Source: Clostridia bacterium
GTDB taxonomy: Bacteria; Bacillota; Clostridia; Oscillospirales; Acutalibacteraceae
Length of the DNA stretch: 64,000 nt
Direction: 5' to 3'
Assembly: GCA_017531385.1 (NCBI GenBank)
Contig: JAFXLD010000103.1
Span: 49,843 to 113,842 of the forward strand
How positions within the stretch are numbered: position 1 is the first letter of the stretch; each line of letters starts with the position of its first letter. Under the pieces are notes generated by a model. It had not been told where the DNA came from, ran no database searches, and was given only the letters and a program-made list of their open reading frames with translations. Below, in pieces: positions 25,813-39,110 of this stretch. The translations under genes and the position numbers were made by a program.

Positions 25813-25841
25813 ATTATGTAACATTTTGTAAAAAATGTCAA
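25813..25841 (-). promoter_or_regulatory. Promoter of the GH36 operon
   Basis: TTGACA, 17-base spacer, CATAAT on the minus strand, 33 bases upstream of the GH36 start. Its -35 box overlaps the stop codon of the upstream carboxypeptidase gene. Confidence 0.75.
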
Positions 25842-27091
25842 GGTTGACGCCAGAAGTAAGAGAACGCTGTATTGTAAAGACTTGTCAGGTCAGAATATCT
25901 GCCGTATTTACTGGGACAGTTGTATACAACTGCTACGAACGTTTTGGTCTTGTTTGTAGCACTGATGTGCTTTTTCGCAACAGTTACAAGACACTGACCT
26001 GCCTGAGAATGTGATCCGGTTTTCATGCCGACCATATAGGGGTAATATCTGTCGCTGTAAGGATTTATGGTTTCATTTGAGTTTGTGTATGAAATTTTTC
26101 CGCCGGACTCAAAATATGCTGTTACCCAGGGTTCGCATACGATATCCCTTATGAGTCTGAAAGAATATGCTTTCGTTGTCATAATTGTCATATCGTATGC
26201 CGAAGTGTAATGATTACTGTTGGGGAAACCGTCGGGATTTGCAAAGTGCGAATCATTCATTCCCAGCTTTTTTGTGTATGTGTTCATCATGCTGACGAAG
26301 TGGGAAAGTGCTTTCTGAGCAGACATGTTCGGATTTCCGGTTGCGACTCTTGCAACATGAACAGCAATAGTATAAGCAGCATCGCAGCCTGACGGTGCAA
26401 GAAGGCATTTGAGAATTTCTTTGAATTTTATTCTCTGACCGACACGAAGTCCTGCTCTGCTTGTGTTTGTTTCAACAAGATACTGTTCGTTTCCTACTGT
26501 CAGAACATAGTCGGCACTTAAGTATTCACAGCCGAGAACAGCGGTTATAACCTTTGTTGTGCTGGCAGGGTGCATTCTCGAGTGCATATTCTTTCCGTAA
26601 AGAATTTTATCGTTATCATAATCGTAAAGCACCGCTGCTCTGGCATAACTTGTTTTGAAAAGTGAATTTGTTTCAACGGTGTATTTTCTGTTTTCATCAG
26701 TGAGTACGGTTGTTGTTTCAGGTGGCTTTGTTGTGGTTTCCGGGGGTAATGTGGTTTCCGGTGCATACGGGTCAAGATTTGCACTCAGTCTTAAAACAAA
26801 ACGCGCATCCTGGGATGTTATATTGCCGTCACCGTTATAATCTGCAAAAGTCATACGGTAGCTGTCCACAGAAATAAGTTTTGCGGCAATTCTTAAAATC
26901 ATTCTTGCATCAGCCGCTGTTATTTTGCCGTTTAAATCAGCATCGCCTTTAAGAATTTCGTTTTCTGAATCTGAAGATGTTGTTTCTTCTTCTGTTGCAG
27001 ATAATATTTCTTCTGCAAAAACAGAAAAACTTCCTGTTACAAATAATATTGCAGTCAACAAAAATGTGATAATTCTATTGATTGTTTTCAT
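25838..27091 (-). CDS. Dockerin-bearing D-Ala-D-Ala carboxypeptidase
   Basis: Penicillin-binding serine peptidase of family S11, 417 aa. In order: signal peptide (to about 26, VFA-EE), acidic linker, a two-repeat dockerin (about 48-107; LNGKITAADARMILR, GDGNITSQDARFVLR), a Pro-Thr linker (111-130, PETT units) and the catalytic domain. S177-T-T-K180 holds the nucleophile, and KTG is in MVGMKTGSHSQ (about 360). The SxN motif reads S234-G-C236, so the usual Asn is Cys. It would trim D-Ala from peptidoglycan side chains outside the cell. A dockerin N-terminal to a wall carboxypeptidase is unusual. The gene starts 12 bases after rlmD. Confidence 0.9.
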   Translation of the reverse strand: MKTINRIITFLLTAILFVTGSFSVFAEEILSATEEETTSSDSENEILKGDADLNGKITAADARMILRIAAKLISVDSYRMTFADYNGDGNITSQDARFVLRLSANLDPYAPETTLPPETTTKPPETTTVLTDENRKYTVETNSLFKTSYARAAVLYDYDNDKILYGKNMHSRMHPASTTKVITAVLGCEYLSADYVLTVGNEQYLVETNTSRAGLRVGQRIKFKEILKCLLAPSGCDAAYTIAVHVARVATGNPNMSAQKALSHFVSMMNTYTKKLGMNDSHFANPDGFPNSNHYTSAYDMTIMTTKAYSFRLIRDIVCEPWVTAYFESGGKISYTNSNETINPYSDRYYPYMVGMKTGSHSQAGQCLVTVAKKHISATNKTKTFVAVVYNCPSKYGRYSDLTSLYNTAFSYFWRQP

Positions 27092-28332: not shown

Positions 28333-28361
28333 TTGAAAAAAATATCGTCATATGTTACAAT
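28333..28361 (+). promoter_or_regulatory. Promoter of the GH2/GNAT-GH78 operon
   Basis: TTGAAA, 17-base spacer, TACAAT, 30 bases before the start at 28391. Confidence 0.65.
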
Positions 28362-28390
28362 ATTTTAAATTGTACATGGAGGTACATTTT

Positions 28391-31300
28391 ATGAAATACA
28401 CATTACAGAAGAAAAACTACAGAAATTTTAAAATTTTCAGAGATAACATCACTGAACCAAGAGCTTATTTTATTCCTTATGCAAAGCTTGATACTCTTAA
28501 AAATACCGATGTCAGAAAGGAAAGATTTTCCTCAGACATGGTGACCTGTCTTTCAGGTGAATGGGATTTTAAATTCTATAATCATTGTGCAAAAGTGCCT
28601 GATGAAATGGACACTTCATATTTAAGATTTGATAAAGTAACTGTTCCTTCCACATGGCAGAGAACAGGCTATATGGAGCCTGTTTATCTTAACTGTCCTT
28701 ATGAATTCCAGCTGCCCCCTCCTGCTATTCCCGAGGATATGACAGCAGGTATTTACAGAAAGAAATTCGATGTTGCCGATATGGATAAAAACTATATTCT
28801 CACTTTCCTCGGTGCTGCAAATAACATCGAAGTGTATCTCAACGGTGCTTATATCGGTTATTCCGAAGGCTCACACAATACTGCCGAATTTGATATCACA
28901 TCAAAACTTGTTGAAGGCACAAATGAGCTTGTTGTTCTCATGTACAGATGGTGTACGGGTACATACCTTGAGTGTCAGGATATGTTCCGTGAAACAGGTA
29001 TTTTCAGAGATGTGCTCCTTACCGCTTACGATAAATCATATATCTATGATTATGCCGTTTCATCAGTGAAAAACGGTGATAAATACGATATGACCTGTGA
29101 TGTTGAAGTTCCCTCTTACGGCGAAGGCTGTACGGTCAAGGTTTCTCTTTTTGACGGTGAAAAGGAAATCGCATCTGCCGAGCAGAAAGCTTCACAGAAG
29201 ATGACTTTCAGGTTCGATGCACTTGATGTTACCGAGTGGAACGCAGAAGTGCCATATCTTTACACTGTTTTCGTAACTCTTTATCAGAACGGTGAAGAGG
29301 TTATGTCACTGCGTAACTATACAGGTTTCAAGACAGTTGAAATTATCGGTAATGTATTTTATTTCAACGGAAAGAAAATAAAGTTCAAGGGTGTTAATCA
29401 CCATGACTCCCATCCCGTAACAGGCTATGTTATGAGTCATGAAGACCTTGAAAAAGATATAAAGCTCATGAAGGAGCTTAATGTCAACTCCGTAAGAACA
29501 TCGCATTATCCTCCCGATCCTTTCTTTATCACTCTTTGCGATATTTACGGTCTTTATGTTGTTGACGAAGCAGATATCGAAACTCACGGTGCATGGGAAG
29601 TATGCAATGAGGATGATAACGGTATCAGCCATGACATCAAGTGGCAGTACCACTATGTTGACAGAGTAATGAGAATGTACAAGCGTGACAGAAGCCATAC
29701 CTCCGTTACAATGTGGTCATTGGGTAATGAAGCCGGTGGCTACAAATGTCAGGATAAGTGCTATGAATACCTCAAGGCACAGGGAACTCCCATTCCTGTT
29801 CATTATGAAGGTGTTGTAAGAACAAAGAGAATTGCTTATGATGTTGTTTCAGAAATGTATCCTCATCAGGATGAAGTAAAACAGGTAGGTGAAGGTGTTT
29901 ACGATACCAAAGGTAAGCACGAAGGTAAATATCGTGGCAGCAGAAAGAATATTCTGAAGAATTATTGTGAGAAGCCGTATTTCCTTTGTGAATATGTTCA
30001 TGCAATGGGTGTAGGACCCGGTGCTATGGAAGAATACTGGGATCTTTTCTATAAACATGACAATCTCATGGGCGGTTGCATCTGGGAATGGGTAGATCAT
30101 GCTGTTTACCATGCTCCCGATGATCCGAAATATCCCTATCAGTACACATATGGTGGTGACCATAAAGAAAAGCGTCACGACGGTAATTTCTGTGTTGACG
30201 GTCTTATGTATCCTGACAGAACACCTCACACAGGCGCTCTTCAGATGAAAGAGATTTACCGTCCTGTCAGAGTTGAATCTGCAGACGGAAATATTTTCAG
30301 ATTCACAAACACTAACAGATTCAGAAACGCTTCATATCTTACAATGAAATGGGTTCTTGAGAGAAACGGTGTAGCTTACGATAACGGCACAGTTGCTCTT
30401 GATATTGAGCCCGAAGCAACAATGGAGCTTGAGATTGATTATAAAGAAATCAACAAAGATAATGATTTCATAATCAATTTTATCTGCTTTGACGGCGACA
30501 GAGAAATTTCAAAAGAGCAGATAATTCTCAACGATGTTTCCGTTACTTATGACCTTTATAAGACAGGTAAAATCGGTGTTGAATCAGACGGTCACAAAGT
30601 CAAAGTCAAGTTTGACGGAGGTGAGGCTGTATTCAGTGCTGAAAACGGAAATATTGTTTCCTATAAAATGAACAAAAAAGAATATCTCAATCAGAAACCT
30701 GCTTGTGGCACTAAAGGTTTTGTTCCCAATGTTTTCAGAGCACCTCTTGATAACGACAGAAATCTTGCAGAAAAATGGAATAAGATGAAACTTGACGATG
30801 TAACAATTGTGCTTGATTCATTTGATGTATGTCTTGACGGTAACTGTGCATCTGTTATGTCTGTTTACAACATAAAGGGCGGTAAAAAAGACCTGTTTGA
30901 ATGTATGGTCGATTACACAATTTCTCCAGTCGGTGAAATGAAAGTCAGAGCTGTGCTCAATAAGGTTATTGATGAAAAAATCGACCTTCCCAGATTCGGT
31001 ATGACAGTTGAGCTTCCTGCAGAATTTACAGAGGTTGAGTATTATGGCAGAGGTTCAGCCGAAAATCTGCCCGACTTCAAAGCTCAGGCTCCCATCGGTA
31101 TTTATAAATCAACAGTTCATGAAATGCATGAACCCTATATCATGCCTCAGGACAACAGCGAGCATTGCAATGTCAAGTGGCTTGATATTTCAGATAATGA
31201 CGGTCATTCAATCCGTGTTTATGCAGAAGAAAGATTTGCTTTCAATATCCATGATTATACACAGGATAATCTTTATAAAGCAAAGCATCAGGAGGATATT

Positions 31301-31444
31301 GTTTCTGTTGACTCTTCTGTACTTACAATTGACGGTTATGTAAGAGGTACAGGAACAAACAGCTGCGGTCCTGCAACTCTCCCTGAGTATGTAATTGATG
31401 AAGACAGTATGCTTATTTTTGAGTTTACTTTTGTAACGGAGTGA
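28391..31444 (+). CDS. Beta-galactosidase, glycoside hydrolase family 2 (LacZ type)
   Basis: Retaining beta-galactosidase of full LacZ length (1017 aa), cytosolic. Domains in order: sugar-binding jelly roll (about 40-205, with LSGEWDFKFY and VPSTWQRTGY), Ig-like domain, TIM barrel (about 310-610), a second Ig-like domain and the C-terminal Bgal_small_N domain (about 740-1015). GVNHHDSHP, SHYPPDP and DEADIETHG are conserved; the acid/base Glu is in WSLGNEAGG (about 445) and the nucleophile Glu in LCEYVHAMG (about 534). The ATG at 28391 follows GGAGG. It is 4 bases from the GNAT-GH78 gene. Confidence 0.93.
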   Translation: MKYTLQKKNYRNFKIFRDNITEPRAYFIPYAKLDTLKNTDVRKERFSSDMVTCLSGEWDFKFYNHCAKVPDEMDTSYLRFDKVTVPSTWQRTGYMEPVYLNCPYEFQLPPPAIPEDMTAGIYRKKFDVADMDKNYILTFLGAANNIEVYLNGAYIGYSEGSHNTAEFDITSKLVEGTNELVVLMYRWCTGTYLECQDMFRETGIFRDVLLTAYDKSYIYDYAVSSVKNGDKYDMTCDVEVPSYGEGCTVKVSLFDGEKEIASAEQKASQKMTFRFDALDVTEWNAEVPYLYTVFVTLYQNGEEVMSLRNYTGFKTVEIIGNVFYFNGKKIKFKGVNHHDSHPVTGYVMSHEDLEKDIKLMKELNVNSVRTSHYPPDPFFITLCDIYGLYVVDEADIETHGAWEVCNEDDNGISHDIKWQYHYVDRVMRMYKRDRSHTSVTMWSLGNEAGGYKCQDKCYEYLKAQGTPIPVHYEGVVRTKRIAYDVVSEMYPHQDEVKQVGEGVYDTKGKHEGKYRGSRKNILKNYCEKPYFLCEYVHAMGVGPGAMEEYWDLFYKHDNLMGGCIWEWVDHAVYHAPDDPKYPYQYTYGGDHKEKRHDGNFCVDGLMYPDRTPHTGALQMKEIYRPVRVESADGNIFRFTNTNRFRNASYLTMKWVLERNGVAYDNGTVALDIEPEATMELEIDYKEINKDNDFIINFICFDGDREISKEQIILNDVSVTYDLYKTGKIGVESDGHKVKVKFDGGEAVFSAENGNIVSYKMNKKEYLNQKPACGTKGFVPNVFRAPLDNDRNLAEKWNKMKLDDVTIVLDSFDVCLDGNCASVMSVYNIKGGKKDLFECMVDYTISPVGEMKVRAVLNKVIDEKIDLPRFGMTVELPAEFTEVEYYGRGSAENLPDFKAQAPIGIYKSTVHEMHEPYIMPQDNSEHCNVKWLDISDNDGHSIRVYAEERFAFNIHDYTQDNLYKAKHQEDIVSVDSSVLTIDGYVRGTGTNSCGPATLPEYVIDEDSMLIFEFTFVTE

Positions 31445-31448
31445 TAAA

Positions 31449-34001
31449 ATGTCTGAAATCAGAATTGTCAAGGGTGAAACTGTCAGTGATTTAAGAAAAG
31501 AAGTTTTTGCTCTTGAACAGGGATATCCTGAAGATAAACTTTTTGATGATAAAGAAAATTCAGCCGATTTTCTTGCCTGTTTTTATATGGGCAAGGCAGT
31601 CGGCTGCGGCCGTTTCTATAAAGAGAATGAAACGGACTATCATATAGACAATATTGCATTCGGAAAAGAGATGCGGGGTAAGGGAATGGGCAGAAAGCTT
31701 GTTCTCTCTCTTGTCGACGAATGTAAGAAAATGGGTGCCCAGCGTGTTACCGTAAACGCAAGGGCAGATGCAGTTAAGTTTTATGAAAAATGCGGTTTTG
31801 CAGTCTGCGGATGTGAATTTACCGATGAAAATTTCAGCCGTGTACCTATGGTGAAATCATTTGAATTTGACTCTTGCAGTTATGTTATGACAGAAGACGG
31901 TATACATGCCTTTTATGTCAGAAAAACATTTAACTGTGCAAATGTGGCTTCTGCAATTGTCAGAATCAATGCAATGGGCTTTGTTGAGCCGTATTTCAAC
32001 TGTGAAAAGCTCACTGATGAAATGTTTATCCCTGCATGGACAAATTATGAAAAGCGTGATTTGTCCGTCGTTGAGTTTCCCATTTATGACACAATGACGC
32101 AGCGCAGATATTATCTTGAGTATGATATAACCGATAAAATTTCAGAGAAAAATGCTCTTGTGCTTCATGTTGGCAACGGCTGGTACTGTCAGACAGAAAA
32201 CGATGCTGAAAAAATGCCTAAATGGGGTGACCCGAAAGTCATTTTTAAAGTCATTCTCACAATGAAAGACGGCTCTGTCAGGGAAATCAATTCAGATGCT
32301 TCGGCACTCTGGAAAGAAAGCTATATCAAAAGAACAAATATATATATCAATGAAACAATCGACGGCAGAGATTATGATGAAACTCTGCTGACTGCTTCTT
32401 ATGACGATTCTGATTGGAAGCCCGTCAACGAAGTGGCCGTTGAACCCTGCGTTATGGTGAAGCAGTTCTTCAGTGGTGACAAATTCGATTTCAGCCTTGA
32501 AGGCAAACTTATTGCAGATGATGAAAGAGGCAAGCTCTATGACCTTTGTGCCGATGAATCGGGACTCTGGATTGTCCGTTTTGATGACGATGCAAAACCG
32601 GGCGATGAAGCTTATGTTTCATTCTCTGAGAGAATTGACGAAAACGGCGATTTTCTTCTTCGGCATACAGGCGGTGACTGGAGACTGCAGAAAGATATAT
32701 ACATCTGCGGTGAAACAAAGAGAGAATTCAGTCCCGTATTTACATGGAGAGCAGGTCGTTACATAAGGGTAGAGGGCAAGGCAAGTCTTGTAAGGTTTGA
32801 TGTCGTTTATTCTCCCGTACCCGTTACGGCTGAACTTACAACAAGCAATGAAAATCTCAGATGGTTTTTTGATGCTTATTGCAACACACAGAAGTGCAAT
32901 ATTCACGGCATGATCCCCTCTGACTGTCCTCACCGTGAAAGACTCGGTTATACGGGTGACGGTCAGCTCTGCTCAGCTGCAGGAATGACTATATTTGACA
33001 GTGAAAAGATGTACCGCAAGTGGCTTGATGATATTGCAGACTGTCAGGATATCTGGGGCGGTCATGTTCAGCATACGGCACCGTTCTACGGCGGTGGCGG
33101 AGGTCCCGGAGGCTGGGGCGGTGCAATGGTTATCGTTCCCTGGAATTTCTATAAAAAATTCGGTGACAAAGAGATCCTCTCTAAATACTATCTCAGAATG
33201 AAAAAATATCTTGACTATATGCAGTCAAGATGTGATGATAATATTGTTATGAGAGAAGAAGAGGGAGGCTGGTGCCTCGGTGACTGGTGCGCTCCCGATA
33301 ATATCAATCTCATTCCCGAACCTTTTATAAATACATATTTCTTTATAAAATGTTGTATTCTTACAAAGAAATCGGCAGAAATTCTCGGATTTACCGATGA
33401 TATGAAAGCACTTGACGATAAGATTAAAGTTCTGTCAGAAGCATTCTGCCGTGAATATTATAATGCGGAAGCTTCATCATTCTATGACGGTATTCAGGGT
33501 GCAGATGCATTTGCATTGGATATCGGTCTCGGTGATGAAAAAACACTCGAAAATCTTGTTTCTCATTATGAAGCACTCGGTGAGTATGATACGGGAATTT
33601 TCGGCACGGATATTGTCACAAGAGTCTTGTTTGAGAACGGCTACGGTGAACTTGCGTTCAGACTTATGACAGGTGACGGTGAAATTTCATTTGCAAACAT
33701 GAAACGCACAGGCACAAATACTCTGTGGGAAAACTGGGACGGTTGCGACTCACTTTCACATCCCATGTTCGGCGCTGCGAGTGAGTATATTTTCAATTAC
33801 ATTCTCGGTATCAGGCAGACCGAAAATTCAGCAGGTTATACGGAAGTTGAAATAAATCCTGCAGACATTCCCGGATGCGGAGATATTTCAGGCAGTATCA
33901 TGACTAAAAAAGGCAAAATTTCCGTTGATGTCCGTTATATTGACGGTGAGAAACAGTTCACATACTCTTTGCCTGACGGCATAAAACTTTGCAATCAATA
34001 A
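31449..34001 (+). CDS. GNAT acetyltransferase fused to GH78 alpha-L-rhamnosidase
   Basis: One uninterrupted 850-residue reading frame with two domains that are normally separate. Residues 1-138 are a GNAT acyl-CoA-dependent N-acetyltransferase of the ElaA/YjdJ-like kind: EVFALEQGYPEDKLFDD, the acetyl-CoA loop R76-GKGMG-81, and KFYEKCGFAVCG. Residues about 139-850 are an alpha-L-rhamnosidase of GH78: jelly-roll modules, then IPSDCPHRERLGYTGDGQ (about 487-504), which carries the catalytic acidic residues, SEKMYRKWLDDI, and the (alpha/alpha)6 barrel ending in GTNTLWENWDG. No linker and no signal peptide, so the protein is cytosolic. It is in an operon with the GH2 enzyme, suggesting breakdown of a galactose/rhamnose glycan. 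The acetyl acceptor is unknown. Confidence 0.85.
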   Translation: MSEIRIVKGETVSDLRKEVFALEQGYPEDKLFDDKENSADFLACFYMGKAVGCGRFYKENETDYHIDNIAFGKEMRGKGMGRKLVLSLVDECKKMGAQRVTVNARADAVKFYEKCGFAVCGCEFTDENFSRVPMVKSFEFDSCSYVMTEDGIHAFYVRKTFNCANVASAIVRINAMGFVEPYFNCEKLTDEMFIPAWTNYEKRDLSVVEFPIYDTMTQRRYYLEYDITDKISEKNALVLHVGNGWYCQTENDAEKMPKWGDPKVIFKVILTMKDGSVREINSDASALWKESYIKRTNIYINETIDGRDYDETLLTASYDDSDWKPVNEVAVEPCVMVKQFFSGDKFDFSLEGKLIADDERGKLYDLCADESGLWIVRFDDDAKPGDEAYVSFSERIDENGDFLLRHTGGDWRLQKDIYICGETKREFSPVFTWRAGRYIRVEGKASLVRFDVVYSPVPVTAELTTSNENLRWFFDAYCNTQKCNIHGMIPSDCPHRERLGYTGDGQLCSAAGMTIFDSEKMYRKWLDDIADCQDIWGGHVQHTAPFYGGGGGPGGWGGAMVIVPWNFYKKFGDKEILSKYYLRMKKYLDYMQSRCDDNIVMREEEGGWCLGDWCAPDNINLIPEPFINTYFFIKCCILTKKSAEILGFTDDMKALDDKIKVLSEAFCREYYNAEASSFYDGIQGADAFALDIGLGDEKTLENLVSHYEALGEYDTGIFGTDIVTRVLFENGYGELAFRLMTGDGEISFANMKRTGTNTLWENWDGCDSLSHPMFGAASEYIFNYILGIRQTENSAGYTEVEINPADIPGCGDISGSIMTKKGKISVDVRYIDGEKQFTYSLPDGIKLCNQ

Positions 34002-34019: not shown

Positions 34020-34523
34020 ATGGCAAAAAGAATGAAAGATTATCAGATATTCAAATGTCCGTATTGCTCCTGTGAGTATTATGACAGTAATGCAAAAAAG
34101 GGGAAAAATATCGGCAATCCTATGCTGGAGTGTCCTTCCTGCGGCAAAAAATCATACAGAAGTTCAGTCCTTGAACCTGCACTCATAGGCGGAAACAGAT
34201 ATTTTGATATCAGGTTTTCCTCTCTTTACGGCAACTTGCGTATAGTGCTTATCCTGATTTATGCTGTGTTTCTTTTTTTCATTCTTGTAACAAAGAATTT
34301 TACCCTTGCAATTTATCTTGTGGTGGCAGCTGCATTTTTGTATATGCTTTATGAGATAATAAGAATCAGCCACAGACATAATTTTCTGGGGTCTGATGAA
34401 TATGATGATGAAATTACAGATTCTCTTGAACGTCTTGAAGATGAAGAATATGCTCAGATGATAATAAATATGCAAGGAATGGAAGAAGACAGCGTTTATT
34501 ATTATGAGATTCATCAGGAATAA
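34020..34523 (+). CDS. Small membrane protein with N-terminal zinc ribbon
   Basis: 167 aa. Two CxxC knuckles (CPYC at 13-16 and CPSC at about 39-42) form a zinc ribbon, followed by a membrane hairpin (about 75-115) and an acidic C-terminal tail (EYDDEITDSLERLEDEEYA). The order is the reverse of the zinc-ribbon protein at 11208. It lies 18 bases after the rhamnosidase fusion and 19 bases before the DUF2207 gene. Family not recognised. Confidence 0.72.
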   Translation: MAKRMKDYQIFKCPYCSCEYYDSNAKKGKNIGNPMLECPSCGKKSYRSSVLEPALIGGNRYFDIRFSSLYGNLRIVLILIYAVFLFFILVTKNFTLAIYLVVAAAFLYMLYEIIRISHRHNFLGSDEYDDEITDSLERLEDEEYAQMIINMQGMEEDSVYYYEIHQE

Positions 34524-34542
34524 ACAAGGAGGAATTTTTCAA

Positions 34543-36042
34543 ATGAAAAAAGTTATATTAAGTTTTATTCTTGTTTTGATGTTGGTTTTTTCTGTATTTA
34601 CCGTAACCGTATGTGCAATACCGTCGGATACCGTGGAAAAAGCAGATTTCAATGCATATCTGAATGCTGACGGCTCTGTAAATGTGACAGAAAAATGGAC
34701 TGTTTCTTATATAAATGCAAGTAATTATTTTAACAGAAACATTGATGTTTACAGCAATGAAAACAGCATGACTTTGTTGCAGAAATATAATGAAATAAAA
34801 GATGTTGCCGTGAAAATTGACGGCAAAAATATATCTGAAGCAGCAGACGGTATCAATACATATTCATTTGCAGAATCTGCAGACGGAAAAAGCTATGAAA
34901 TAAAAATCAATTGTCCCTCTGCTCAGGTGACAAGAGAATATGAGATTTCCTATACCGTTAACGGTGCATTGAAGAAAAATCGCGGAAATGCTGTTTTTGC
35001 ATTTGTTTTTATCGGTGATACCTTTATGTCCACAAGTAACAATGTATCAGCTACGGTTCATTTTCCCGACGGAACTGAAAAAATTACTGTTCCGGAAGAA
35101 AGCGGCGGTGCTGTTGATAAAAACAGTGCAACATTTTCATCGAAATTTGTCAACGGTGTTTTTGCTGTTGAAGTAAGTGCAGACGATAACATTTTTGATA
35201 ACGGTGCATTGGTTTCATATTCTGCTGCAAAAGAAAATATGGTAAAAATCAGAAACGGAATAATTTCAGTTCTGCCATGGATTGGCGTTGTAATATTTGC
35301 AGTTGCAGTAATAGTTCTTCTTCTGTTTTCTGACAGAATCAGAAGATTACCTCCGGAACGCAGTGCAAAAAAACTTCTTAAAAATGAAGAAAATGTTGCG
35401 ATAGAATCACTTCCTGAAGACATATCTGCATGTCAGGCTTATAAAATGCTTGTGCCTGCATCAAAAATAACTCCCAAAAAGACATCAAAAAAAGTTCCCG
35501 TTGTGTTTGCGATGGCTGTGCTTGAGTGTATGGAAAAAGGATATATCATACAGGATGATGACAATCTTATTGTCGGTACACCAAAACAGGACGTACCTGC
35601 GTATATTATGAGTGTGCTCAATTTCCTGAAAACATTCTGTGAGAAAAAGAACAACAGATATGTTATCAGTAAGGATTTTGCAGAAAAAGTGAATGCTGAA
35701 TGTATGGTGCGATATGACATTATTGCCAATTATCTTGCAACATTTTATTCTCTTATACCCGAAACAAACGGCAGATTCTTCAGAAAAAATGAAAATAAAG
35801 AGAAATACGAAAAAGCATACATTGTCAAGGTTAAGGCGGCAGATACAAAGCATAAACCTGCGTTTGCACAATGTATGAGCGATGTTTTTGATGGTAAAAA
35901 GACAAGTGAACCTGCAGTTTTTGCAATGTTATTTTCTCATATGTCTGCGGACAAGCTTTTTGCATCAGACGGCAGAAACGGAGAGGCGGCACTTTGTGAA
36001 GCCATAAATGCAATATATAAGGTCTTTGTAAAATCCAAATAA
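34543..36042 (+). CDS. DUF2207-type membrane protein
   Basis: 499 aa. Signal peptide or N-terminal anchor (about 1-26, TVCA-IPS), extracytoplasmic beta domain (about 30-240, FNAYLNADGSVNVTEKWTV, the usual DUF2207 opening), one transmembrane segment (about 255-275) and a cytosolic part with PPERSAKKLLKNEE and winged-helix-like VVFAMAVLECMEKGYI. This layout matches the YciQ-like DUF2207 family but lacks the Gly/Ser-rich tail common there. The ATG at 34543 follows AAGGAGGA. Function unknown. Confidence 0.78.
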   Translation: MKKVILSFILVLMLVFSVFTVTVCAIPSDTVEKADFNAYLNADGSVNVTEKWTVSYINASNYFNRNIDVYSNENSMTLLQKYNEIKDVAVKIDGKNISEAADGINTYSFAESADGKSYEIKINCPSAQVTREYEISYTVNGALKKNRGNAVFAFVFIGDTFMSTSNNVSATVHFPDGTEKITVPEESGGAVDKNSATFSSKFVNGVFAVEVSADDNIFDNGALVSYSAAKENMVKIRNGIISVLPWIGVVIFAVAVIVLLLFSDRIRRLPPERSAKKLLKNEENVAIESLPEDISACQAYKMLVPASKITPKKTSKKVPVVFAMAVLECMEKGYIIQDDDNLIVGTPKQDVPAYIMSVLNFLKTFCEKKNNRYVISKDFAEKVNAECMVRYDIIANYLATFYSLIPETNGRFFRKNENKEKYEKAYIVKVKAADTKHKPAFAQCMSDVFDGKKTSEPAVFAMLFSHMSADKLFASDGRNGEAALCEAINAIYKVFVKSK

Positions 36043-37244: not shown

Positions 37245-39050
37245 TTAAGCTTTCAGCAGAATATCTTTTTCTCCGTCTTCTGTGACCATCTGGAGCTCTT
37301 TGATGCCGAATCTTTCCATAACTCTTGTCCAGCGAAGAACCATATCCGTGTCATGATTTACGGGCACCCAACCTGCACTCAGATAACTCTTGCAAGCGGG
37401 GATTCTGTGGTCATCTGTAGTGAGAGTTGCCTTTTCAACACCGTTATCAAAGAAATGCTTTTCTGCGATTGCACAAAGAGCTGTGCCGAGGCCTTTTCCT
37501 CTTTCCGTGTCTGCAACAGATACCATATGAACAAGTCCCATACCTGTTGAGGGATATTTACGCACAGCAGTTATTGTTGCAACGGGAAGATTTTCTGCGT
37601 TTACAATGAAGAAGCAGTCCTTATAAACATCAATATCCTCCATGCAGTTTGTGAATGCTGAATTGTCTGCACCGTAGCCAACAAGACCGTTGTTGCAGAT
37701 TCTTATCCAGTGGGGAATGTCCTCTTCACCCTGATATGTTCTTATTGTATATCCCTCGGGAAGTTCGGGAATTGTCTTATCCTTTGGGAAAACCATAAGT
37801 TTCAACTGTTTACCCTGTGCCTCGGCTCTGGGTTTCCATGTCTTCTTGTGACCGTCATAGATTTCCTGAGGAATTTCGGGATTACCCTTTGAGTAAGAGG
37901 GAATAAGCATGTCACCTGCAACCTTGGGATCTGTACAGGCTGTGTCATTTCTGTATTCTTCTCTTTCTTCCTTGTTTCTGAAGTTGGGAATTGCAACGGG
38001 TACACCGCCGTTCAGAATTGAACGGTAACCGAGAAGTCCTGGCAGGAACATGTCGAGAGCTTCATAAACATCAATGTAATCAGCATCGGGGTTGCCCTTG
38101 ATTGCTTCAACTGCATGATACATTGTGTAGAAGTCGGAATTGCCGTGACCGAATTCCTTGGCGATATCGTCATATTCGCCTACGGGTTCATAGCATCTTA
38201 CTGAGAAATTATCGGGATTGTTGAGATAAACCGTTCCGAAAGCACCTTTCTTTGCGTCTTCTCTTGCACTTTCCATTCTTCCGTCTGAGCCGTAAACCGT
38301 GTACCAGATTGAATCCTTTGAACAGCCGACACCGTGAAGGCTCTTGATGATTGCGCCGTTTTCGAGAGTAATCATCTCAACTGCCGCATTACCTGCCTTT
38401 GCACCCATTCTTGCCATTCTTGCATTAAAGGGCATTTCAAAACCTGTTACGGAAACGGGACGAAGACCTGTGATGTGGATAAGGGGGCCTATGGAATGTG
38501 TGCAGTAGAATGTTGCATACATGTTGTTTCTCCAGTGGTCTTCTTCACCGAATGTGATAAGGTCCCAGATGCTCTCGCAGTTGTGCATGTATTCGCCTTC
38601 ACCGTATTCAAATTCGCCTACGGCACCTGCTTTATAGAGTTTTCTCATTTCATATGTAGCAGGCATATAGCAGTAGTTTTCAGCGTAAGCATAGATTTTT
38701 CCTGATTTTTCAACTGCTTCGCAAAGCTCAACAGCCTCTTTCATTGTCTGACAGGGAAGCACTTCGCTGATAACATTAAGTCCCTTGTTAAGGCACTTGA
38801 TAGCAAAGGGTGCATGTTCTGTTGCATAGTTTGCAAGAACAACAGCATCCATGTCGTGCTCAAGAAATTCATCGAATGATGTGTAGTATGTGATTGAATC
38901 ATCATTCAGTTTGTTTTTTACTCTTTCAATCTGGAAATCGGAATAATCGCAGATTGCAACAAGCTTTGCGTTTTCAGCCTTGCTTGCGTACTGTATCATT
39001 GACTGTCCTCTGCCGGCTCCCAGAACACCTATTTTTATAATATCGCTCAT
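37245..39050 (-). CDS. Gfo/Idh/MocA oxidoreductase fused to GNAT acetyltransferase
   Basis: Single 601-residue frame with two enzymes. Residues about 5-400 form a Gfo/Idh/MocA protein with the Rossmann motif GVLGAGRGQSM, but the EKP catalytic-lysine motif is replaced: E96 is kept while V97-L98 stand in for K-P (SEVLPCQT). Residues about 435-580 are a GNAT domain: YTIRTYQGEEDIPHW, then the acetyl-CoA loop ERGKGLGTAL and late ACKSYLSAGWVPV. The ATG at 39050 has AAAGGA upstream and begins directly at the Rossmann strand. It has its own promoter and a shared terminator. A sugar-nucleotide or amino-sugar pathway in which one protein modifies and acetylates is a reasonable guess; neither activity is proven. 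Confidence 0.85.
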   Translation of the reverse strand: MSDIIKIGVLGAGRGQSMIQYASKAENAKLVAICDYSDFQIERVKNKLNDDSITYYTSFDEFLEHDMDAVVLANYATEHAPFAIKCLNKGLNVISEVLPCQTMKEAVELCEAVEKSGKIYAYAENYCYMPATYEMRKLYKAGAVGEFEYGEGEYMHNCESIWDLITFGEEDHWRNNMYATFYCTHSIGPLIHITGLRPVSVTGFEMPFNARMARMGAKAGNAAVEMITLENGAIIKSLHGVGCSKDSIWYTVYGSDGRMESAREDAKKGAFGTVYLNNPDNFSVRCYEPVGEYDDIAKEFGHGNSDFYTMYHAVEAIKGNPDADYIDVYEALDMFLPGLLGYRSILNGGVPVAIPNFRNKEEREEYRNDTACTDPKVAGDMLIPSYSKGNPEIPQEIYDGHKKTWKPRAEAQGKQLKLMVFPKDKTIPELPEGYTIRTYQGEEDIPHWIRICNNGLVGYGADNSAFTNCMEDIDVYKDCFFIVNAENLPVATITAVRKYPSTGMGLVHMVSVADTERGKGLGTALCAIAEKHFFDNGVEKATLTTDDHRIPACKSYLSAGWVPVNHDTDMVLRWTRVMERFGIKELQMVTEDGEKDILLKA

Positions 39051-39081
39051 TGTAAACAATGTCCTTTCGCTTTTTTTATAA

Positions 39082-39110
39082 ATAATATCATTCATCAAGA
39101 AAAAGTTCAA
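39082..39110 (-). promoter_or_regulatory. Promoter of the oxidoreductase-GNAT gene
   Basis: TTGAAC, 17-base spacer, TATTAT on the minus strand, 32 bases before the start at 39050. Confidence 0.65.

Follow-up and report, generated by a model that had tools for sequence, protein, structure and literature searches.

A GNAT acetyltransferase domain fused to a GH78 glycosidase in Acutalibacteraceae, and relatives in which it is reduced or missing

The fusion gene and its operon

We analysed a 64,000-nucleotide stretch of DNA (the window) from a Clostridia bacterium of the family Acutalibacteraceae (GenBank assembly GCA_017531385.1, contig JAFXLD010000103.1). The gene under study encodes an acetyltransferase domain of the GNAT type followed, in the same frame, by a predicted alpha-L-rhamnosidase of glycoside hydrolase (GH) family 78. 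A first-pass annotation had described an intact frame in which a complete, ElaA-like GNAT domain with the motif R76-GKGMG-81 is joined without linker to the GH78 enzyme, in an operon with a GH2 beta-galactosidase. The main features are listed below, with confidence in the structure model given as the predicted local distance difference test (pLDDT).

28352-31444, + strand: LacZ-type GH2 beta-galactosidase gene, 1030 residues, first gene of the operon (Pfam PF02836, E 5e-85; PF02929, E 1e-63)
31449-34001, + strand: GNAT-GH78 fusion gene, 850 residues (850 codons plus stop), a stop-free open frame
31449-31862, + strand: GNAT acetyltransferase domain, residues 1-138 (Pfam; pLDDT block means 86-95; Foldseek match to 5jph)
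31674-31691, + strand: acetyl-CoA motif A, R76-G-K-G-M-G81 (conserved in alignment A1)
31731-31859, + strand: GNAT portion beta5-alpha4-beta6-beta7, residues ~95-137, counterpart of the stub-type remnant described below (alignment; model of L065)
31941-32450, + strand: GH78 N-terminal beta-sandwich, residues 165-334 (Pfam PF08531)
32571-32780, + strand: GH78 concanavalin-like domain, residues 375-444 (Pfam PF05592)
32826-33803, + strand: GH78 six-hairpin catalytic domain, residues 460-785 (Pfam PF17389, E 3e-66)
32937-32939, + strand: codon of Glu497, predicted general acid (aligns with Glu636 of SaRha78A)
33729-33731, + strand: codon of Glu761, predicted general base (aligns with Glu895 of SaRha78A)

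The frame is intact as annotated, and the operon assignment agrees with the layout: the GH2 gene stops at 31444, 4 nucleotides ahead of the fusion and in the same direction. Its top NCBIfam model is NF052611 (beta_gal_Bga2A), at 742 bits and below the cutoff of 999. The model of the whole fusion protein has a mean pLDDT of 90.2 and a predicted template-modelling score (pTM) of 0.91, with the lowest values in the GH78 half at residues 493-503 and 547-555. The join is short, as the lack of a linker had implied; in the model the last GNAT strand stops at residue 137 and the next strand begins at 145.

The GNAT half

Pfam matches to PF13673 (residues 36-137, E 4e-19) and PF00583 (residues 25-117, E 2e-16) together cover residues 25-137. 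In the model the GNAT fold is complete with its CoA motif, and Pfam, motif, model and Foldseek agree on a GNAT fold with its seven-stranded mixed sheet and motif A (R/Q-x-x-G-x-G/A). The GNAT assignment and its motif stand; the comparison with ElaA calls for a correction, the domain being nearer to Staphylococcus aureus SACOL1063 and Bacillus subtilis YjcF. Foldseek superimposes it on the SACOL1063-CoA complex (5JPH) with a root-mean-square deviation of 1.2 Å, a template-modelling (TM) score of 0.90 and 33% identity, and SACOL1063 is found by sequence search at E 1e-17. The sequence search yielded 27 distinct chains at E <= 0.01, none of them ElaA, which is also more distant by fold (TM 0.82-0.83, 17-18% identity). 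SACOL1063 and YjcF (1Q2Y) share the fold and sequence type of the GNAT half but are stand-alone proteins.

Motif A is largely conserved among related fusions. Alignment A1, in which 27 of the 28 GNAT-bearing rows were read (L082, cut at its 3' end, was omitted), has R76 in 26/27, G79 in 23/27 and G81 in 27/27 rows, and both motif A and Tyr112 are intact in the window's lineage. The GNAT half is probably a working acetyl-CoA-dependent acetyltransferase.

The GH78 half

Foldseek ranks 1-11 for the C-terminal half are all rhamnosidase structures, among them 6I60, 3W5N and 6GSZ; when aligned by structure, the half is 23-24% identical with 6I60 and 22% identical with 3W5N. Both the (alpha/alpha)6 catalytic domain and the accessory beta-domains of GH78 are present (PF17389, PF08531, PF05592). 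The half shares its domain order and its catalytic acid and base with DtRha (6I60) and SaRha78A (3W5M, 3W5N), whose entries report no GNAT domain. The general acid and base of SaRha78A are Glu636 and Glu895 in the passages of PMC7263609 that treat them; their counterparts, Glu497 and Glu761, are invariant in 40/40 aligned rows, the window's included. The C-terminal half would be a working GH78 glycosidase, probably with exo-alpha-L-rhamnosidase activity. The same genome holds three more GH78-like genes, 23-37% identical.

The GH78 catalytic motif at 32916-32963, PSDCPHRERLGYTGDG, is likewise invariant in 40/40 rows, again counting the window. The corresponding DERLGWTGD stretch of SaRha78A is one residue longer; the window's GH78 has one residue fewer between Arg496 and Glu497 than the DERLG motif of the references. 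The shortened motif may mark a GH78 subgroup.

Occurrence of the fusion

The first-pass annotation had suggested looking for the fusion in other genomes, and had held that a frameshift at the join, or separate domains in all relatives, would speak against it. Neither was found. We searched 11 genomes of the window's genus and 300 of its family. Seven of the 11 genus genomes carry the fusion in a single frame (G000-G004, G006, G009); the other four hold a stub form (G007) or the GNAT alone (G005, G008, G010). Across the family, 19 of the 300 genomes, in 9 genera, gave one match spanning GNAT and GH78 (query start at or before residue 34 and end at or beyond 710, with at most the best three candidates per genome scored). 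A stop is reported within the match of one of these (G157), and two further genomes (G117, G183) gave partial matches. A scan of named genomes returned 36 loci, and in 15 a GNAT match precedes GH78; several loci are the same records as G-numbered genomes, and L054 and L062 are both truncated at a contig end. Because the loci examined were those closest to the window protein, these counts are biased towards fused forms.

No GNAT-GH78 fusion was seen outside the family in searches at the order and phylum levels. At E <= 1e-100, 44 of 394 genomes of the order matched, 40 of them outside the family, and the 25 out-of-family loci whose N-termini were read had neither stub nor GNAT, L145 among them being open at the 5' end. 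Among 398 phylum-wide genomes, E <= 1e-80 gave one other match, beginning at residue 151.

Two adjacent genes could appear fused if a stop or frameshift had been missed in metagenome assembly. The genome is a draft of 107 contigs, 83% complete, and in relatives the two domains are also found apart. On the other hand, the join is stop-free and the same frame is open in six further genus genomes (L005-L009, L011), which excludes a sequencing frameshift, and also in many genomes of other genera. The ratio of nonsynonymous to synonymous substitution rates (dN/dS) is moreover far below 1 on either side of the join. We therefore rejected an artefact, whose chance we regard as negligible. In 11 intact pairs dN/dS was 0.08-0.21 for the GNAT and 0.06-0.18 for GH78; the GNAT is under purifying selection where both halves persist.

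Relatives with a reduced or missing half

In the stub forms only an end piece of the GNAT, roughly its C-terminal third, stands ahead of GH78. Stubs are ~40-57 residues long, with 42-57 residues of room where GH2 lies directly upstream. From the GH2 stop to GH78 there are 396-511 nucleotides in 14 of 16 fused loci (the exceptions being L073 with 636 and L053 with 925) and 125-172 in 4/4 stub loci, the rest of the nine stub rows having no usable GH2 match. The distance falls to 13-31 nucleotides in the GNAT-less loci L045, L046, L048-L050, L057 and L059. L047 measures 814 nucleotides, with a GH2 match that falls short of the gene end in the record; its near-twin L046 measures 27. The distance is 323 nucleotides in L089, and the GH2 match of L041 is on the opposite strand. 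We considered whether a GNAT might be hidden in another frame ahead of a stub or GNAT-less GH78 and rejected this for loci with GH2 directly upstream, where 125-172 or 13-31 nucleotides leave too little room. At L059:8055-10111 the GH78 homologue, behind GH2 and without GNAT, runs over two frames through a frameshift that is either real or due to assembly.

The identification of the stubs as GNAT remnants rests on position, motif and model combined. A profile was built from 12 stand-alone GNATs, the genus's own three lone GNATs included. Against it, eight of nine stubs fall at the C-terminal end and one (L052) in the middle; single stubs match weakly, at E 2e-6 to 0.07 when nine sequences were searched, and the three stub groups match by hhalign with P of 8e-9, 5e-5 and 8e-5. 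The starts differ, from profile position 94 to 121. L052 was scored as a stub but retains more, a degenerate stretch over profile positions 51-136, and the N-terminus of L089 is degenerate but GNAT-like (E 0.05). A model was made for one stub protein, L065. Residues 1-50 are predicted with confidence (block means 84-96), and the secondary-structure elements at 10-16, 17-25, 35-37 and 40-48, strands and a helix, correspond to residues 99-105, 106-114, 124-126 and 129-137 of the window protein with a constant offset of 89 residues. No GNAT appeared among the 50 Foldseek matches listed for this model. With motif A and the first four strands gone, the usual mode of acetyl-CoA binding is not available to a stub.

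The reverse condition occurs in three genus genomes. In these (G005, G008, G010) the GNAT frame, 140-158 codons long when measured between stops, lies between the same GH2 gene and the small gene, probably for a membrane protein, that follows the fusion in the window. FTCD is an outer neighbour in each of them. G008 and G010 also keep a D-Ala-D-Ala carboxypeptidase and an RNA methyltransferase, neither of which was found in 9000 bases of G005's 10.6-kb contig. These genomes, 95-99% complete, gave no GH78 match at E <= 0.001.

Phylogeny

We built a tree of 83 GH78 domains. Record duplicates were dropped before the count, as were frames shorter than 650 residues, weak GH78 matches and open 3' ends, with a few otherwise droppable rows kept by hand; L054, L059 and L062 are excluded. 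All 28 GNAT-bearing and 9 stub-bearing rows fall within a clade of 47 rows, supported at 99 by the Shimodaira-Hasegawa-like approximate likelihood-ratio test. The remaining 10 rows of the clade have no recognised GNAT and include the degenerate L089, scored as 'none'. A rooted tree of 41 of the 83 rows agrees (36-row clade, 100/98), and a tree of the GH2 partner (C-terminal half, 30 loci) broadly mirrors the GH78 pattern. From these trees, the fusion is indicated to have arisen once in the GH78 tree, with GNAT and GH78 later lost separately. Several independent fusions are not required, as one clade contains all GNAT and stub rows.

The stub rows lie on at least three branches (L010; L051, L052, L055 and L063; L056, L061, L065 and L066). 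Approximately unbiased tests reject a single stub clade (p 3e-86) and a single full-GNAT clade (p 5e-42), p values to be read loosely because the groupings were defined with the first tree already in view. The third stub group has the GNAT-less rows L045-L050, L057 and L058 beside it, and L088 is surrounded by rows that bear a GNAT; the domain has thus been lost in these rows.

Resolution is poor in the tree built from the GNAT alone (46 rows and 143 columns), where fused and stand-alone rows are mixed (8 changes). It thus lends no support of its own to a single fusion and was used for the genus clade alone, in which the lone GNATs cluster with the genus's fused GNATs (99/88). The outgroups L042 and G006 carry the fusion, which makes loss of GH78 in the genus, once or twice, the simpler reading and a gain of GH78 less likely; branch support at this point is moderate (85/93).

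Neighbouring genes

Two further genes follow the fusion in the window.

34020-34523, + strand: small cysteine-rich protein, probably a membrane protein as judged by eye; genus-conserved right-hand boundary of the locus
34504-36042, + strand: DUF2207 membrane protein, genus-conserved downstream neighbour (PF09972)

A Pfam search with the first gave no match; across the genus its gene is found behind either GNAT-GH78 or the lone GNAT. Elsewhere the surroundings vary. L037-L041 have no GH2 directly ahead of the fusion, and in L037:8001-11650, L039:8001-11682 and L041:1613-5297 the next gene, overlapping or close behind GNAT-GH78, encodes an Acyl_transf_3 membrane acyltransferase. A sugar symporter (MFS_2) is next in line in one relative, L044, and the GNAT-less L045 lies near GH127, GH4 and GH109-like genes.

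The window holds a second fusion of a sugar enzyme and a GNAT, at 37245-39110 on the - strand: a Gfo/Idh/MocA oxidoreductase with a C-terminal GNAT. It is whole in 5 of the 11 genus genomes (G000-G004); stops are reported within the match in G002 and G003, yet frames of 601 and 604 codons cross both domains there. The order is reversed in G007, with the GNAT first (620 codons), and in G009 the GNAT part alone is left, in a 205-codon frame beside FTCD. Also in G009, an alpha/beta hydrolase with similarity to steryl acetyl hydrolase (L036:12693-13589) lies between DUF2207 and FTCD, a site at which the window has merely a 260-base gap. Upstream, at 25838-27091 on the - strand, a D-Ala-D-Ala carboxypeptidase (S11) carries a dockerin type I domain ahead of it. 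A dockerin domain is unusual on a cell-wall enzyme such as an S11 carboxypeptidase.

Function

We favour, with a probability of roughly 0.6, a reading in which the protein comprises two autonomous cytosolic enzymes serving a sugar-catabolic operon headed by the LacZ-type GH2. A GNAT gene would once have stood between GH2 and GH78 and been fused once to GH78 in some ancestor inside the family. The fusion would provide co-production and proximity without obligatory coupling, so that either half would be dispensable. The protein is predicted to be cytosolic, no signal peptide being apparent by eye, which would put acetyl-CoA within reach of the GNAT. By analogy, the GNAT probably acetylates a sugar, a glycoside or an amino metabolite of the operon, and its likeliest task would be LacA-like. 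In the lac operon the GH2 enzyme LacZ is accompanied by the galactoside acetyltransferase LacA, whose role is uncertain but which would act on comparable compounds of its pathway. A further parallel is the sugar symporter next in line in L044. The fold of LacA is a left-handed beta-helix of hexapeptide repeats and not a GNAT, so the likeness to the window's domain is one of operon logic only.

The persistence of each half alone, the low dN/dS and the mostly kept CoA motif favour autonomous enzymes over an obligatory two-step machine. The first-pass annotation had offered two interpretations. That of two independent activities fits the survival of each half alone at the same operon position; that of rhamnose release coupled to acetylation of a product is unsupported, as under obligatory coupling neither half would be expected to survive by itself; a mild coupling by proximity is conceivable.

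Several observations weigh against two autonomous enzymes. The GNAT dN/dS is higher than that of GH78 by ~1.4x or more in 7 of the 11 pairs, which allows for some relaxation. G79 is replaced by Lys in L053, L073, L080 and L081, R76 by Asn in L084, and Tyr112 by Phe in 4/27 rows; fused GNATs that have lost motif residues imply that the domain need not be catalytic everywhere. The fusion, with its short join, is retained in several genera, perhaps for reasons beyond convenience, and a pTM this high may reflect a fixed packing of the domains.

Another proposal is that the GNAT is, or is becoming, mainly a structural or regulatory part of GH78: a cap, a dimerisation surface or an acetyl-CoA sensor. 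It has been cut to an end piece beside GH78 on at least three branches, the end piece folds confidently in the one stub modelled (L065), and some full-size GNATs have altered motif residues (e.g. L053, L067, L084, L085). There is also precedent in O-GlcNAcase, whose pHAT domain acts as an allosteric regulator in the relevant passages of PMC12494797. On the other side, the window's lineage retains motif A and Tyr112 and has a low dN/dS, and a purely structural role leaves the lone GNAT in the GH2 operon of G005, G008 and G010 unexplained. The stub also changes faster than GH78 in three pairs, with a proportion of nonsynonymous differences (pN) of 0.25-0.39 versus 0.14-0.22, the stub value being below its own silent-site proportion (pS) of 0.58-0.73; in L045-L050, L057, L058 and L088 the stub is wholly absent. 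We consider such a role quite improbable.

The two halves might instead form a coupled bifunctional enzyme, in which the GNAT acetylates the sugar or aglycone released by GH78 or prepares the GH78 substrate. The model here is RmNag of Rhizomucor miehei (PDB 4ZM6), a GH3 beta-N-acetylglucosaminidase with a C-terminal tandem GNAT shown to be a glucosamine N-acetyltransferase; as described in parts of PMC4680927, it has both activities and acetylation is needed to cleave the glucosamine disaccharide (GlcN)2. Conservation of the fusion across 9 genera and the Acyl_transf_3 gene next to it in L037, L039 and L041 are consistent with coupling. However, 3 of the 11 genus genomes have the GNAT without GH78, several lineages have GH78 without the GNAT, and rhamnose lacks an amine, the usual GNAT acceptor; the RmNag authors themselves, in those parts of PMC4680927, regard the connection of their domains as structural only. 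Coupling of this kind appears unlikely.

Relation to known systems

The first-pass annotation knew of no such fusion. For GH78 this agrees with our searches of open-access literature, which found no GH78-GNAT fusion, subscription papers lying mostly outside the scope and no protein-database architecture search being included; other GH-GNAT fusions, GH3 in RmNag and GH84 in O-GlcNAcase, have been published. RmNag resembles the window protein in carrying a glycosidase and an acetyl-CoA-dependent GNAT, active in RmNag, on one polypeptide. It differs (PMC4680927) in being fungal and GH3, with two tandem C-terminal GNATs, one of them functional, and glucosamine as acceptor. The window protein is a GH78 enzyme with one GNAT at its N-terminus, an architecture unlike that of RmNag.

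The comparison with O-GlcNAcase (GH84) extends to the loss of catalysis. Its GNAT-fold domain does not bind acetyl-CoA according to the relevant text of PMC3814719 and is termed catalytically incompetent in that of PMC12494797, and in Oceanicola granulosus GH84 and the acetyltransferase are separate neighbouring genes (PMC3814719). As far as these accounts go, the GNAT-fold partner is thus a neighbouring gene or a fused domain depending on the organism, with catalysis lost in one branch. The differences lie in the GH family, in a reversed domain order and in a eukaryotic GNAT fold that is retained without acetyl-CoA binding, whereas the GNAT-GH78 series includes intact, altered, stub-reduced and missing GNATs. 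The intact motif residues of the window's domain argue against a pseudo-acetyltransferase there; altered and stub forms occur in relatives.

A bolder and tentative idea is that an enzyme domain has here turned structural. An active GNAT would have been cut independently, on at least three branches, to a similar C-terminal beta-alpha-beta-beta piece that is now part of the GH78 fold, while the window's GNAT would still be an active transacetylase and a GNAT-fold counterpart of LacA. We hold this to be possible but doubtful.

Descriptions of glycosidases that carry an acetyltransferase domain are few, and the pseudo-acetyltransferase of O-GlcNAcase is a long-standing puzzle. The GH78-GNAT pairing and its natural reduction series appear to be new, and the loss series at one operon position raises the case above a mere new domain pairing. 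One bacterial family shows the stages side by side, mostly at a single operon position: lone GNAT, fusion, altered GNAT, stub and GNAT-less GH78. This series makes catalysis, regulation and structure testable alternatives for such domains, and the window's GNAT is a candidate acetylation step within a sugar operon of gut bacteria.

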